DNA of 64,000 nt, from the NCBI RefSeq assembly GCF_015714715.1, contig NZ_WAHS01000002.1, positions 310,001 to 374,000 on the forward strand. The letters are read 5' to 3'. A program made the translations under genes and the position numbers. Numbering within the stretch: position 1 is the stretch's first letter; every line of letters starts with the position of its first letter. The stretch is from Aestuariivirga litoralis. GTDB taxonomy: Bacteria > Pseudomonadota > Alphaproteobacteria > Rhizobiales > Aestuariivirgaceae. The notes beneath the pieces were generated by a model, which was given only the letters and a program-made list of their open reading frames with translations, did no database searches and was not told where the DNA came from. Positions 26,674 to 45,010 of the stretch are shown here, in pieces.

Positions 26674-28143
26674 ATGTCCAATCGCGTTTTGATCGTCGAA
26701 GATGAGCCAGCCCAGCGTCGCATCCTCGAAGAAATGATAAAGCGTTTCGGCTTTGAAGTTGTCTCAGCCGACAATGGACACAAAGCGCTCGAAGCGCTTT
26801 CCGGCAGCCTTGGCTCCTCAATCAATCTGATCATTCTTGATCTCGTCATGCCTGGCATGGATGGTCTTGAATTCCTTGAAAAACTCGAAGCGGTGCGTGG
26901 TGACTTGCCGGTCATCGTGCAAACCTCGCAAGGCTCGATTGAAACCGTCATCAAGGCCATGCGCGCCGGTGCCGATGATTTCGTGGTGAAACCGGTCGCA
27001 CCTGAGCGCTTGCGCGTTTCCATCCAGAACCTGCTGAAGGTCAATGCGCTCACTGAAGAAGTGAAGCGCCTCAACAAAAAAGTTTCAGGCGCCCTCACTT
27101 TTGATGATCTTGTCGCATCATCGCCAGCCATGAACAATGTGCTGCGCCTCGGCCGCCGCGGCGCGCAATCCAACATTCCCATTCTGATTGAAGGCGAATC
27201 GGGTGTGGGCAAGGAAATGATCGCCCGCGCCATTCAGGGCGAAAGCGATCGTGCCGGCAAACCCTTCGTCGCAGTCAATTGCGGCGCCATCCCGCAGAAC
27301 CTCGTTGAGTCGATTCTCTTCGGCCACGAAAAAGGTTCGTTCACCGGCGCCACCGGCAAGCATCTCGGCAAATTTGCCGAAGCCGATGGCGGCACATTGT
27401 TCCTCGATGAAGTGGCCGAACTGCCGCTCGATATCCAAGTGAAGCTGTTGCGCGCCATCCAGGAAGGCGAGATTGACGCTGTGGGCTCACGCAAGCCCAC
27501 CAAGGTCAATATCCGCCTGATCTCGGCCACCAACAAGAACATGATTGAAATGGTCAAGGCCGGCCAGTTCCGCGAAGACCTCTATTATCGCCTGAACGTC
27601 TATCCGGTGATGGTGCCTGCTTTGCGCGACCGCAAGGATGATATTCCGGCTCTGGTCAATCACTTCATCACCAAGCTTTCGGCTGAAGAAGGCCGCAAGG
27701 TGCATGGTATCACGTCGCAGGCTTTGGCCATGCTGCAGCTCTATGCCTGGCCGGGCAATGTGCGCCAGATTGAGAACACCATCTTCCGCGCCATCGTGCT
27801 GTGCGAAACCGAAGTGCTCGACGTGGCGGATTTCCCCCAGATCGCTGCTTTGGTCGAAGGTTATGAAGTCAAGATTCCGGCAGCCCCTGCCGCCGTCAAG
27901 AAACCCGAACTCGTCCGCCCGGCAAATGGCCAGGTCAGCGACGGCAATGCCATCGGCGTTTCGATTGTGACCGAAGGTGGCCATATCCGTACGCTGGAAG
28001 AAGTTGAAGCCGACATGATCAAGCTGGCCATGCACCGCTACCGCGGCCAGATGTCGGAAGTGGCACGCAAACTGGGCATCGGCCGTTCGACGCTGTACCG
28101 CAAGATGCGGGATTTGGGTCTGGAAGAAGCTGCAAGCGTCTAA
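26674..28143 (+). CDS. Sigma-54-dependent response regulator (NtrC family)
   Basis: The 489-residue protein has an N-terminal receiver domain with phospho-acceptor Asp56 in IILDLVMPG, a central AAA+ domain with Walker A GESGVGKE and Walker B GTLFLDEV, and a C-terminal Fis-type HTH (SEVARKLGIGRSTLYRKMRDLG). The sigma-54-contacting loop reads GSFTGA instead of GAFTGA. No sensor kinase gene is adjacent. It is followed by an L,D-transpeptidase gene and may regulate cell-envelope genes. I saw no obvious -24/-12 promoter in the 79-bp gap before that gene. Confidence 0.92.
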   Translation: MSNRVLIVEDEPAQRRILEEMIKRFGFEVVSADNGHKALEALSGSLGSSINLIILDLVMPGMDGLEFLEKLEAVRGDLPVIVQTSQGSIETVIKAMRAGADDFVVKPVAPERLRVSIQNLLKVNALTEEVKRLNKKVSGALTFDDLVASSPAMNNVLRLGRRGAQSNIPILIEGESGVGKEMIARAIQGESDRAGKPFVAVNCGAIPQNLVESILFGHEKGSFTGATGKHLGKFAEADGGTLFLDEVAELPLDIQVKLLRAIQEGEIDAVGSRKPTKVNIRLISATNKNMIEMVKAGQFREDLYYRLNVYPVMVPALRDRKDDIPALVNHFITKLSAEEGRKVHGITSQALAMLQLYAWPGNVRQIENTIFRAIVLCETEVLDVADFPQIAALVEGYEVKIPAAPAAVKKPELVRPANGQVSDGNAIGVSIVTEGGHIRTLEEVEADMIKLAMHRYRGQMSEVARKLGIGRSTLYRKMRDLGLEEAASV

Positions 28144-28240: not shown

Positions 28241-30193
28241 ATGTCAAAGCAAGCTGCGAAGCTTTTGTTCGGGTTGTCAGTTTTGGCCTTGTTGGCATCG
28301 CCCGCCAGCGCCGAGCAGCGCAAGGCAAACTTCTTTGATTTGCTTTTTGGTCAAAATCCAAATCGTCAACGCGCCAATAACAACAATGATGGTGGCGACC
28401 GTCCGTGGTGGCAGAACGATGGCAGCAACAGCTTCGATCAGGGCACCCCTAAGAAGCGAGCACAAGTCGTTATTCCAAAGGATGCGGGTTCAGGGCCCGA
28501 TGAACAGGTTTCGGGCCTCGGCATGGGCACTGTTACCTATGCACCGCCGCCCATTCTGGCGGTGTTTGACCCAACTTTCGCTACGCTGACGACCACCACG
28601 CCTGAAGCAGGCACTATCCGTGATCTGCTGGCCAACAAGGCCACTCCAATCAAGGCCCAGGACGCTGAGAAGAAGGCCATTCTGGCCTACTATAAAACCT
28701 CAGAATTCAAACCCGTCTGGGTGCAGGGCGGTCATGTCACCGAAAAAGGCCTGAAGGTCTTGAAGCTTCTGGCCCGCGCTCAGGAAGAGGGCATGGTGGC
28801 CAAGAATTACATCCCTGAAGTCCTGACCGATCTGGACAATATGGATGCCTCGGTAGCTGATGATCCGGCCAAGCAGGCGCGCCTTGAAGTGGGCATCACG
28901 CTGGCTGCACTTCATTACGCCCGCCAGCTGTCGGGTGGCCAGTTCGAGCCCAACCGCCTTTCGCTTTATAATGACATCAAGCCTACCCCGGTCGATGCTG
29001 ACGAAGCCATCCGTGGCATGACAACGGGCGTGGATCCGGTGGCCTATCTCGAAGATCAGGCTCCGCCGCAACCGCAGTACAAAGTGTTCAAGGACGAGTT
29101 GGCCAAGCTGTCCGCCAATACGACAGTCGATTTTGATCCCATCAAGGCTGGCCCCACGGTCAAGTCTGGCAAGAGCGATCCTCGCATGAGTGCGCTCCGC
29201 GCCCGCTTAATCCAGCTCAACTTCCTTCCGGAAAACTCCATCATCGAACATCCGGATCTGCTGGACCAAGACATGGCCATCGGCCTGATGGCCTTCCAGA
29301 CCTCTAGCAAGCTGAAACCCACCGGCAATCTGGATGCAAATACGATCAAGGCGCTGAACCGCGACGACACCAAAACCAAACGCCAGCGCTTGATTGCCAG
29401 CATGGAACGGTTGCGCTGGCTGCCGCGCGACATGGGGATCAAATATGTCTTCGTGAACCAGCCGGCTTACGAAGCCACCGTCATGGCCAATGACGGCCCG
29501 CTGTGGAAAACCAAAGTCATCATCGGCCAGCCGACCAAGCAGACCTATTCGTTCTACAACCAGATTCAGACCGTGGTGTTCAATCCGAAATGGGGCGTAC
29601 CCGCTTCCATCATCGTGAATGAATATGCACCGAAGATGCGTAAAGACCCGGGCTACCTCGACCGTAACGGCTTCGTCGTGGTCGATCAGCGCGGCCGCCA
29701 GATCGATACCCAGTCGGTTGATTGGTACAATGTGGGCAAAAACCCGAATTTCGGCCTGCAGCAATTGGCCGGTGACGGGAATGCGCTGGGCGAGCTGAAA
29801 TTCCTCTTCCCCAATGCGCATGACATCTACATGCATGACACGCCGACCAAGAATCTGTTCAACAGCCAGGTCCGCGCCTTCAGCCACGGCTGCGTGCGCA
29901 CCCAGAACCCGCGTGAGTATGCCTCGATCCTGCTCGGCTGGGACAAGGACAAGGTGGCCGAGAACCTGGCTGACGGCCAGACCAAGTCGGTGGCCCTCAC
30001 TGACAAGGTTCCAGTGTATATGACCTATTTCACCGCTTGGACCGACGGCAACGGTGCCATCCAGTATTATGATGATGTTTATGGGCGCGATGAAGCGATG
30101 GCCAAGGCTTTCGCCTATGCCCCTGCTGTCAAGGCACCCGCGGTGCCTGCCAATGTGGCTCAAACCACGTCCGGCACTGTCACCCAGAACTGA
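28241..30193 (+). CDS. Murein L,D-transpeptidase (YcbB/LdtD-type)
   Basis: From the ATG at 28241 the protein has about 650 residues. It starts with a signal peptide (LLFGLSVLALLASPASA), has an Asn-rich low-complexity stretch (QRANNNNDGG), a scaffold region, a peptidoglycan-binding domain around MAIGLMAFQTSSKLKPTGNL and the YkuD catalytic domain with SHGCVR. This domain order matches YcbB, which makes 3-3 mDAP-mDAP cross-links and resists most beta-lactams. A GTG at 28223 is an alternative start that would put six residues before the signal peptide. A MepK-like endopeptidase gene follows. Confidence 0.92.
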   Translation: MSKQAAKLLFGLSVLALLASPASAEQRKANFFDLLFGQNPNRQRANNNNDGGDRPWWQNDGSNSFDQGTPKKRAQVVIPKDAGSGPDEQVSGLGMGTVTYAPPPILAVFDPTFATLTTTTPEAGTIRDLLANKATPIKAQDAEKKAILAYYKTSEFKPVWVQGGHVTEKGLKVLKLLARAQEEGMVAKNYIPEVLTDLDNMDASVADDPAKQARLEVGITLAALHYARQLSGGQFEPNRLSLYNDIKPTPVDADEAIRGMTTGVDPVAYLEDQAPPQPQYKVFKDELAKLSANTTVDFDPIKAGPTVKSGKSDPRMSALRARLIQLNFLPENSIIEHPDLLDQDMAIGLMAFQTSSKLKPTGNLDANTIKALNRDDTKTKRQRLIASMERLRWLPRDMGIKYVFVNQPAYEATVMANDGPLWKTKVIIGQPTKQTYSFYNQIQTVVFNPKWGVPASIIVNEYAPKMRKDPGYLDRNGFVVVDQRGRQIDTQSVDWYNVGKNPNFGLQQLAGDGNALGELKFLFPNAHDIYMHDTPTKNLFNSQVRAFSHGCVRTQNPREYASILLGWDKDKVAENLADGQTKSVALTDKVPVYMTYFTAWTDGNGAIQYYDDVYGRDEAMAKAFAYAPAVKAPAVPANVAQTTSGTVTQN

Positions 30194-30333
30194 AACCGTC
30201 AAAAGGTTCAAAAACCCGCAAATTATGTCTAAACCGTCGCCGTTTTCCGGCCTTCGGTCAGTGACTTAGCTGGGTGCTGCATCGCAATAACAGCGATGAA
30301 GCCATTCATTACATTGCAGAAATCCAGTTTCGC

Positions 30334-30348
30334 TTAAGGTGCCGTTAA
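30334..30348. promoter_or_regulatory. CtrA-like box (TTAA-N7-TTAA) upstream of the MepK-like gene
   Basis: TTAAGGTGCCGTTAA fits the CtrA consensus TTAA-N7-TTAA exactly. It lies 149 bp before the ATG of the MepK-like gene, in a 303-bp gap (30194-30496) that holds no gene. A further half-site-like TTAAGCAT lies at 30369-30376. Apart from these I see no other feature in the gap. Confidence 0.45.
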
Positions 30349-30496
30349 ACATGTTCCGGCAAGGTCCATTAAGCATGAGTTTGCCTCAAGGTGGCCTCAT
30401 TCTTGTTCGATGTGCGGTTTGGGTATAAGGTTAAGACCGGTTTCACCCAACCCTAGACCAGTAAAGGAAGGGCGAAAGTCCTTGTGTGAGTTGAGT

Positions 30497-32077
30497 ATGG
30501 GTAAAGCAGTGGTCGTGTCAGGACAACATCGAACCTTGTCTAAAAATTTGAGAAAATTGCTCGTCGCTTTTGCGGCGTCTGGTCTTTTAGCATTGGGCGG
30601 TCTTGCCCCCGTGGTTGCGGGTGGCGAAAACCGCACGATTTCCTTGTCGCATATCCACACCGGTGAAACCCTCACCGTGACCTATATGAAGGATGGCCGC
30701 CTGGTTCCTTCGGCCATGAAGCAGATCAATTACCTGCTGCGCGACTGGCGCAAGAACGAAGTCATCACCATTGATCCGGAAACCATCAACCTGATCTGGG
30801 AGCTTCACGAAGATTTGGGCTCGCATGAGCCGATCCGTATCGTCTGCGGCTATCGTTCTGCCAAGACCAACGCCCTGTTGCACCGCATCGGCCGCCACGT
30901 GGCCAAGGAAAGCCAGCACATCCGCGGCAAGGCCATCGATTTCTATTTCCCTGACGTGCCCACCATCAAGATCCGCAACGTGGCCCTGGTGCGCCAGGTG
31001 GGCGGTGTTGGCTATTACCGCTCTGCCGGTGGACCGACGGGCTTCCTGCATGCAGACTCTGGCCGCGTGCGCCATTGGGGCCCCGGCATTTCGTCTTCGC
31101 AAATGGCCCAGATTTTCCGTGACGGACAGAAATATGTGGGTAAACGCCTGCGTCTGAATGCCGGCAACGATACGCTTGTGGCGTCGAATGATGCAGGCAC
31201 CACGAGCACCGGCAAGCGTCCTGCGGGCTTCTTCAGCAAGATGCTGGGCCTGCAGACCGATGACGATGCGGCACCTGCACAAACCGCTGCCGCTGCCACC
31301 AATGCGCCAGTCGCCAATGACGCGGCTGCCAACGGCATCTATGATGGCGGCCAGGACGATATTGCCGATCTGTCGGAAGATGCAGCAACGCCGCCTCCTT
31401 CCAAGAAGCGTGCCGCCAAGGCTGGCACTGCCATTCCCGAAGCGCAGATGGCCTCTTTAGGCGATCTGAGCCAGGATGCAGCCGCAACACCCAAAGCCAA
31501 GCCTGCGGCTGAAGTCGCTGACGCGGCACCAGACGTGAAAACCGGCCCCACCATTCCGAAGCCGCGTGAACGCCCCGATGCCATCCTGCTGGCCGCAGCG
31601 GCCAACATGAACACGGCACCGAAGGTATTCCTGGTTAACGCGGCATCCGCCCCGGCCCCCAGCCAGTCTGGCTATGACATTCCTTCGCCTCTGGCCAATG
31701 ACGCGCTGAGCGCCAAGATGCTGGCGGTCAGCTCTGATGATCCAAGCCAGGCCAAGCCAAAATCCAAGCTCGGCTTCAAGAGCGGCGGAAACGCCAAGGC
31801 GGTAACCATCAAGCCGATGATTGCGAGCGCCGCTGACAGCGACATCAACTGGTGGCCGCAACTCATGCTGCGCGGCGACGCACAGATCCGCCGTGACGGC
31901 CAGCCGCCGATCATTGGCGCACAGCCGCAGGATTCAATGCCGGTTGCTGCCACCCTCGATCCAATCGGCGGCTTCGGCAGCCAGGCCTTTGCCGCTGACC
32001 TGAGCGACACCCAGCGCAGCGCCGAAGGCAAGGGCGACATCCAAGCCGTCAACGAAGAAGACAAGGGCGATATGTAA
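30497..32077 (+). CDS. MepK-like murein endopeptidase (DUF882, M15-type) with long disordered C-terminus
   Basis: From the ATG at 30497 the protein has 526 residues. A hydrophobic signal/anchor (LLVAFAASGLLALGGLAPVVAG) follows a short basic N-terminus. The DUF882 domain covers roughly residues 50-210, with zinc-site motifs SQHIRGKAIDFYF and GFLHADSGRVRHW. The remaining 300 or so residues are Ala/Pro/Lys-rich and look disordered. E. coli MepK, the known member, cuts 3-3 cross-links made by L,D-transpeptidases, matching the preceding gene. An upstream frame start at 30410 lacks the signal-peptide layout and is rejected. Confidence 0.82.
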   Translation: MGKAVVVSGQHRTLSKNLRKLLVAFAASGLLALGGLAPVVAGGENRTISLSHIHTGETLTVTYMKDGRLVPSAMKQINYLLRDWRKNEVITIDPETINLIWELHEDLGSHEPIRIVCGYRSAKTNALLHRIGRHVAKESQHIRGKAIDFYFPDVPTIKIRNVALVRQVGGVGYYRSAGGPTGFLHADSGRVRHWGPGISSSQMAQIFRDGQKYVGKRLRLNAGNDTLVASNDAGTTSTGKRPAGFFSKMLGLQTDDDAAPAQTAAAATNAPVANDAAANGIYDGGQDDIADLSEDAATPPPSKKRAAKAGTAIPEAQMASLGDLSQDAAATPKAKPAAEVADAAPDVKTGPTIPKPRERPDAILLAAAANMNTAPKVFLVNAASAPAPSQSGYDIPSPLANDALSAKMLAVSSDDPSQAKPKSKLGFKSGGNAKAVTIKPMIASAADSDINWWPQLMLRGDAQIRRDGQPPIIGAQPQDSMPVAATLDPIGGFGSQAFAADLSDTQRSAEGKGDIQAVNEEDKGDM

Positions 32078-44963: not shown

Positions 44964-45010
44964 TTAACCATGACTTAAGCATTCGATTCACACGGTGACT
45001 CCGAGGACTC
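44964..45010 (+). promoter_or_regulatory. ccrM control region: CtrA-like box plus three GANTC methylation sites
   Basis: TTAACCATGACTTAA at 44964-44978 is an exact TTAA-N7-TTAA CtrA-type box. Three GANTC sites follow: GATTC at 44985-44989, GACTC at 44997-45001 and GACTC at 45006-45010, the last 31 bp before the ccrM start. In Caulobacter the ccrM promoter is activated by CtrA and carries GANTC sites in its leader, so the gene product can modify its own promoter. The same arrangement is plainly visible here. Confidence 0.8.

Follow-up and report, generated by a model that had tools for sequence, protein, structure and literature searches.

Is the opening of 3-3 peptidoglycan cross-links timed by the cell-cycle regulator CtrA, separately from their making? 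The question is raised by a locus of Aestuariivirga litoralis within a stretch of 64,000 nucleotides (contig NZ_WAHS01000002.1, positions 310,001 to 374,000; referred to as the window and numbered from its first letter). Here, a gene for a YcbB/LdtD-type L,D-transpeptidase (LDT, the maker; 28241–30193) is followed on the same, forward strand by a gene for a DUF882 (Peptidase_M15_2) MepK-like zinc peptidase (the cutter; 30497–32077). A first reading of these letters (the original prediction) had placed a TTAA-N7-TTAA box in the 303-base-pair (bp) gap between the two genes, 30194–30496; motif scan and conservation confirmed this box, TTAAGGTGCCGTTAA, at 30334–30348. We consider it fairly probable that the box is a CtrA site driving the DUF882 promoter alone, and not that of the adjacent LDT gene, and that the peptidase cuts 3-3 links.

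LD-transpeptidation is essential in Agrobacterium tumefaciens, and Hyphomicrobiales have a wall with an unusually high content of L,D-cross-links (PMC11527210; here and below, papers are cited for the passages considered). These passages name neither an enzyme nor a timing for the opening of L,D-cross-links in Hyphomicrobiales. A conserved CtrA-type site on the single DUF882 gene found in this genome would name a candidate opener together with its regulator, and makes the question of timing testable with one point-mutated promoter.

The conservation of the box in relatives, proposed earlier as a check on its function, was observed at two levels. Of the 30 genus-level loci, which include that of the window, 29 have exactly one box, located within the gap or at its margin. 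The exception, L023, has a spacing of 8 instead of 7; in L031 the box overlaps the LDT stop codon, as it does in L028 under one of two ways of counting. The spacers of these 29 loci include 24 distinct sequences, with columns 47–67% alike; across the genus, the stretch preceding the box is 43% alike on average. The half-site columns are 97–100% alike, which is partly by construction, the rows having been cut at the box. Within a further set of 80 named loci, the box was found in 32 of 33 relatives whose domain is about 70% identical or more, among them five newly added ones, all with the box; three loci with less than 350 bp upstream (L213, L214, and L236) were left uncounted.

The order-level set comprised 60 loci from 40 families, hand-picked for family spread and contig room from 59 of 199 genomes (families f33 and f47 were not taken, and L089 has a short upstream stretch). 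The strict motif was present in 8 of these loci, either in the gap or, if no LDT gene adjoins, within 700 bp. The relaxed form TAA-N7-TTAA, which was adopted after profile hits, occurs within 350 bp before the cutter in 28 of the 60 loci, representing 21 families. It also occurs in 19 of another 44 named loci with sufficient DNA upstream; 38 of these 44 lie outside the earlier sets. Two controls are independent of the choice of this motif. Any other spacing of the same half-sites from 2 to 15 was found in between 0 and 6 loci, 2.5 on average, and the motif is oriented, with 28 forward vs 7 reverse occurrences, or 19 vs 1 if the final C is required. In control stretches of equal length taken roughly 1 kb farther upstream, most of which fall within LDT genes, it occurred in 1 of 60 loci. 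These counts indicate that the box is kept by selection and not by chance.

The comparison of the two promoter regions further indicates that the box is directed towards the cutter, and that the promoter region of the neighbouring maker lacks it. TAA-N7-TTAA was found before the LDT gene in none of 46 order-level loci, on either strand, and before the DUF882 gene in 23 of the same 46 (Fisher 5.9e-9). In this test the LDT gene was assumed to begin where its open frame begins; when the alignment was used to set the start of either gene, the counts in 45 loci were 0 and 23, and widening the LDT search stretch to -500..+150 left its count at 0. Among named loci with readable LDT regions, a reverse relaxed match was seen in 1 of 29 members of the genus-level group and in 0 of 25 others. 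The promoter region of the window LDT itself showed no CtrA-like box. In A. tumefaciens, a prediction with relaxed settings placed CtrA motifs upstream of nine LDT genes, among them atu1164 and atu1615, the counterparts of LdtD (PMC11527210). No motif of that kind was found before the window LDT, but the motif used here is stricter. Both analyses tie CtrA to LD-cross-linking in Hyphomicrobiales in silico; the A. tumefaciens motifs concern LDT genes, whereas the site described here belongs to the cutter and comes with conservation, spacing, and strand controls.

The survey for TTAA-N7-TTAA revealed two sites in the window, against 0.09 expected from shuffles, and 35 in the genome. Spacings 4–10 together yielded 82 sites, the six spacings other than 7 averaging 7.8 (Poisson 9.5e-13). 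The backwards-read motif AATT-N7-AATT gave 22 sites, and 260 over the same range of spacings; the excess thus lies in the spacing and not in the letters. Among the 34 other sites, 5 fall inside a mechanical open frame of at least 100 amino acids. A family scan covered thirty proteins encoded next to 28 of the 34 (L040, L142, L144, L145, L151, and L157 fell outside the scan). Among these proteins are FtsZ, DivIC, flagellin, a CcrM-type DNA methylase, a PilZ protein, a protein with sigma-70 region 1, and another YkuD-type LDT; the remainder are encoded by metabolism, transport, envelope, and regulator genes, and 5 of the 30 proteins had no family at E 1e-6. CtrA of this genome has CtrA 4qpj as its top match in the PDB, is 94–97% identical in those same-genus relatives that had a match (10 of 12), and was matched at E 1e-80 in 18 of 21 genomes, its own included. 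It shares 84% identity with what we take to be the Caulobacter CtrA sequence.

The box agrees with the CtrA consensus of Sinorhizobium meliloti, TAA-N7-TTAAC (PMC3616915), and with the motif TTAA-N7-TTAAC obtained by chromatin immunoprecipitation sequencing (ChIP-seq) in a stalked budding bacterium (PMC7200025). The match to the S. meliloti consensus, the spacing-7 excess, and the conservation together bear out the earlier assignment of the box to the CtrA type. As in the alphaproteobacterial CtrA regulon, the sequence, the spacing of 7, and the upstream placement are retained, and the ftsZ, CcrM-type, and flagellin genes are boxed in this genome as well. Genes for cell wall, membrane, and envelope functions were enriched in the predicted CtrA regulons of 10 organisms compared in 2010 (PMC2877005). 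Unlike in the present case, the passages considered on CtrA regulons name no DUF882 or MepK target. The term 'DUF882' does not occur in the main texts of PMC7200025, PMC3616915, and PMC2877005, their supplementary target tables lying outside this search, and the words 'peptidoglycan', 'transpeptidase', and 'cell wall' are missing from the main text of the CtrA ChIP-seq study in S. meliloti (PMC4433202). A search for literature on CtrA with YcbK returned none, and titles and abstract openings of related literature gave no CtrA–DUF882 link.

The window's other box, 44964–44978, precedes the CcrM-type methylase gene (N6_N4_Mtase and RAMA domains), which starts at about 45030 and whose box can serve as a positive control when other CtrA boxes of this genome are assessed. 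Two more boxes (L043 and L045) adjoin genes whose products carry Ig-like or cadherin-like repeats, possibly surface proteins under CtrA control.

A candidate -10 element of a CtrA-dependent promoter, CAAGGT, is located at 30360–30365 on the forward strand, 11 bp past the box. The conserved letters of a -10 element, YANNNT, occur at exactly this distance in 27 of the 30 genus-level loci. At other offsets up to 44 they occur in 0 to 5 loci, with the exceptions of offset 1 (17 loci), which stems from the nCAT following the box, and offset 44 (9 loci). PhoB-type activators sit just 5' of the -10 element, in place of the -35 element. Because the box sits in this position, activation is our first choice for the role of CtrA, and is not settled; CtrA control of the cutter, most likely by activation, is in our judgement the best reading. 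We infer that phosphorylated CtrA would bind the box at about -38 to -24, the placement of a PhoB-type activator, and would switch on the peptidase along with the ftsZ, ccrM, and flagellin genes. The peptidase would then be exported and would cut cross-links between two meso-diaminopimelate residues (mDAP-mDAP, or 3-3 links) as MepK does in E. coli, and the cut links would allow insertion of new wall or separation of the daughters.

The remainder of the gap contains two further conserved elements on the forward strand: a direct repeat with an 11-bp period, GCCTCA-N5-GCCTCA (30383–30399), conserved at genus level, and a candidate second promoter, CTTGTT-N16-TATAAG (30402–30429), recognized in the genus alignment. 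A consensus scan of the gap found no forward sigma-70 site, one reverse-strand site, and no terminator, so the promoters proposed here derive from alignment only. The better-kept letters of the repeat in the genus are GCCNNA-N5-GCCNNA, and its extended motif has one occurrence in the genome (1 and 1 in the backwards control). The repeat was also considered as a site for CenR, whose motif in Rhodobacter sphaeroides is TGA-N8-TGA (PMC9275681). TCA-N8-TCA fits in reverse, but the genus keeps GCCNNA instead, and the repeat profile beats all 20 shuffles in only 2 of 60 order-level loci; this assignment was rejected. The fold of the 5' untranslated region in the window has a z-score of -0.16, and no structure is claimed. 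A hairpin-like CGG/CCG stretch at 30465–30495, just 5' of the start codon, varies in both arms among relatives; its alignment, with L004 left out and identical rows merged, is too poor for a covariation count. A further in-frame ATG for the DUF882 gene, upstream at 30410, is likewise open.

The DUF882 protein matches Peptidase_M15_2 with E 2e-49, the domain spanning residues 43–194 (Pfam), and the NCBIfam MepK model over its positions 7–176 of 176. The zinc ligands H141, D148, and H185 (H-x6-D plus a second His) are invariant across 90 loci and are all shared with E. coli MepK (35% identity). The same residues were assigned as zinc ligands in a model of Klebsiella YcbK (PMC3927764), and MepK is described as the LD-specific endopeptidase that E. 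coli has (PMC12729407). A structural model of the domain reached a predicted local distance difference test (pLDDT) score of 85 and a predicted template modelling (pTM) score of 0.82, with lower values (pLDDT 62–74) in the last 55 residues. The ten best PDB matches of this model in a fold search are all zinc peptidoglycan peptidases, presumably of the M15/VanX type. A sequence search for a solved DUF882 structure gave no convincing match (best E 0.014, unrelated proteins).

Several results weigh against the reading of a CtrA-activated cutter of 3-3 links. TAA-N7-TTAA is absent within 350 bp from 32 of the 60 order-level loci and from 19 of the 40 families, from 25 of the 44 further named loci and, on the forward strand, from all 20 class-level loci, a selection of loci from elsewhere in the class made among 55 matching genomes. 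The -10 offset of 11 was chosen after the sequences had been inspected. In the order set, YANNNT is weak (5 of 28 loci at offset 11 and 3 of 28 at offset 12), and beside the genome's 34 other boxes, taken in both directions, its 6 occurrences in 68 at offset 11 are not distinct from the counts at other offsets, which reach 7. The second promoter-like element is found 46–55 bp beyond the box in the genus, so CtrA may be neither the only nor the main input. As to the protein, its NCBIfam MepK score of 161.4 bits is below the cut-off of 185, hence the wording 'MepK-like', and the ten best structure matches had E-values no better than 4e-3 and TM-scores of at most 0.46. CtrA might repress the DUF882 gene, or only tune a main promoter formed by the downstream element. 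Both this element and the direct repeat show good conservation in the genus, the variable distance between box and element makes direct contact of CtrA with that promoter unlikely, and the indistinct -10 offset elsewhere in the genome fits as well. Repression or tuning nevertheless seems unlikely to us, given the activation geometry of a -10-like hexamer fixed at 11 bp in nearly all genus-level loci, and given that many families outside the genus keep the box and not the direct repeat. That the conserved box is bound by a regulator other than CtrA appears very unlikely: further response regulators are present (24 matches to the CtrA query in the genome, the second best at 38% identity), but the genome-wide spacing-7 excess, the sites before the ftsZ, CcrM-type, and flagellin genes, the fit to published motifs, and the closeness of CtrA to the presumed Caulobacter sequence all argue for CtrA.

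The window LDT is one of 14 YkuD genes in the genome, and another, encoding 209 amino acids (G000:C1:929881-930507; L042, L260), has its own box, starting 53 bp upstream. CtrA would thus probably govern one maker together with the cutter. The original prediction that cutting is timed apart from making is therefore too simple: it would hold for the neighbouring pair, but not for the genome as a whole, where another LDT is boxed. In a tree with 29 related genus- and order-level loci, the short LDT forms one clade with 16 others (support 0.82), of which 9 have the full box; the 13 loci outside this clade include none with the full box and one with the relaxed box. CtrA could then time 3-3 turnover as a whole, inducing the cutter and the separate short LDT in one phase, with making and cutting coupled rather than separated, which we rate only slightly below an even chance. 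The CtrA motifs predicted before several A. tumefaciens LDT genes are in line with such coupling (PMC11527210), whereas the 7 clade mates without the full box are not, nor are four same-genus genomes (G001, G011, G018, and G019, one of them A. litoralis) whose best match to the short LDT falls outside the clade. The short LDT could also tether outer-membrane proteins instead, a possible role for LDTs (PMC11527210). On the side of the cutter, a zinc peptidase of other specificity, acting on 4-3 links, on L-Ala-D-Glu, or in tether release, would fit the several specificities spanned by folds of this type (1lbu, 5opz, and 4mph), the long tail that E. coli MepK does not have, and the missed NCBIfam cut-off. 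We regard this as improbable in view of the full-length match to the MepK model, the identity to E. coli MepK with all zinc ligands in common, and the E. coli-like synteny with a YcbB-type LDT gene.

The order of the gene pair given in the original prediction was confirmed by Pfam domains, structure match, and coordinates, the genes running from ATG 28241 and ATG 30497 to their stop codons. The window LDT has the Pfam domains Scaffold, PG_binding_1, and YkuD and the cysteine motif SHGCVR; its top solved relative in a PDB sequence search is YcbB 6ntw (E 1.3e-45). Its score with the NCBIfam L,D-transpeptidase model PRK10594, 207.7 bits, is under the cut-off of 425 bits. The LDT-Go type, which shares less than 10% identity with the YcbB type and is mutually exclusive with it (PMC10864386), was also considered; the observation bearing on it is the match of the window LDT to YcbB structures. 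A YcbB-type LDT gene lies directly 5' of the DUF882 gene in all 30 genus-level and in 46 of 60 order-level loci, and 10 of 20 class-level loci have a same-strand LDT gene at most about 1.1 kb upstream of it. This neighbourhood is ordinary and not new: in E. coli K-12, ldtD (ycbB; 981047–982894) and mepK (ycbK; 983075–983623) are adjacent on one strand. The E. coli and window pairs share both families, their order and strand, an intergenic gap (180 bp in K-12), and the catalytic residues. They differ in the length of the peptidase (182 amino acids in MepK vs 526 in the window protein) and in the upstream gene, which is mukB in E. coli and an NtrC-type regulator gene in the window. To our knowledge, CtrA is absent from E. 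coli. The regulatory wiring of a known gene pair thus gains new support, in the form of conserved, oriented, and cutter-specific CtrA-like sites in the order. As a tentative wider account, which we think possible while leaning against it, the ancestral LdtD–MepK pair would have been split in regulation in the polar-growing Hyphomicrobiales: CtrA would have captured the cutter alone, the cutter would have gained a long, disordered-looking tail, 3-3 opening would be cell-cycle-gated in polar growth or division, and the short LDT would have been recruited as a partner in part of the genus.

The NtrC-type response regulator gene (26674–28143, forward strand; receiver, sigma-54 activator, and Fis helix-turn-helix domains by Pfam) is the first in the order regulator–LDT–DUF882. 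A match to this regulator was present just 5' of the LDT gene in 42 of the 46 order-level loci having the latter. Control of the LDT gene by this regulator through sigma-54 was considered and rejected: sites with at most two mismatches were found in 8 of 46 loci vs 7 in the reversed-sequence control.

Of the 192 good genomes in the order sample, 183 contain the DUF882 gene; in the class sample, where the window's genome and at least one other member of the order are counted, it was found in 53 of 148. Its open frames in the order mostly comprise 450–700 amino acids among the matches listed, and those of 18 of the 20 class-level loci 177–306. The C-terminal tail of the window protein (31079–32077) is about 330 residues long and rich in Ala and Pro; GKGD motifs recur near its end in the genus members inspected. 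A DUF882 match was found in none of the seven genomes of family f4 (G039, G088, G120, G149, G174, G196, and G216), which are reduced to 1.3–1.5 Mb. G039, the sole f4 genome checked for CtrA, retains it.

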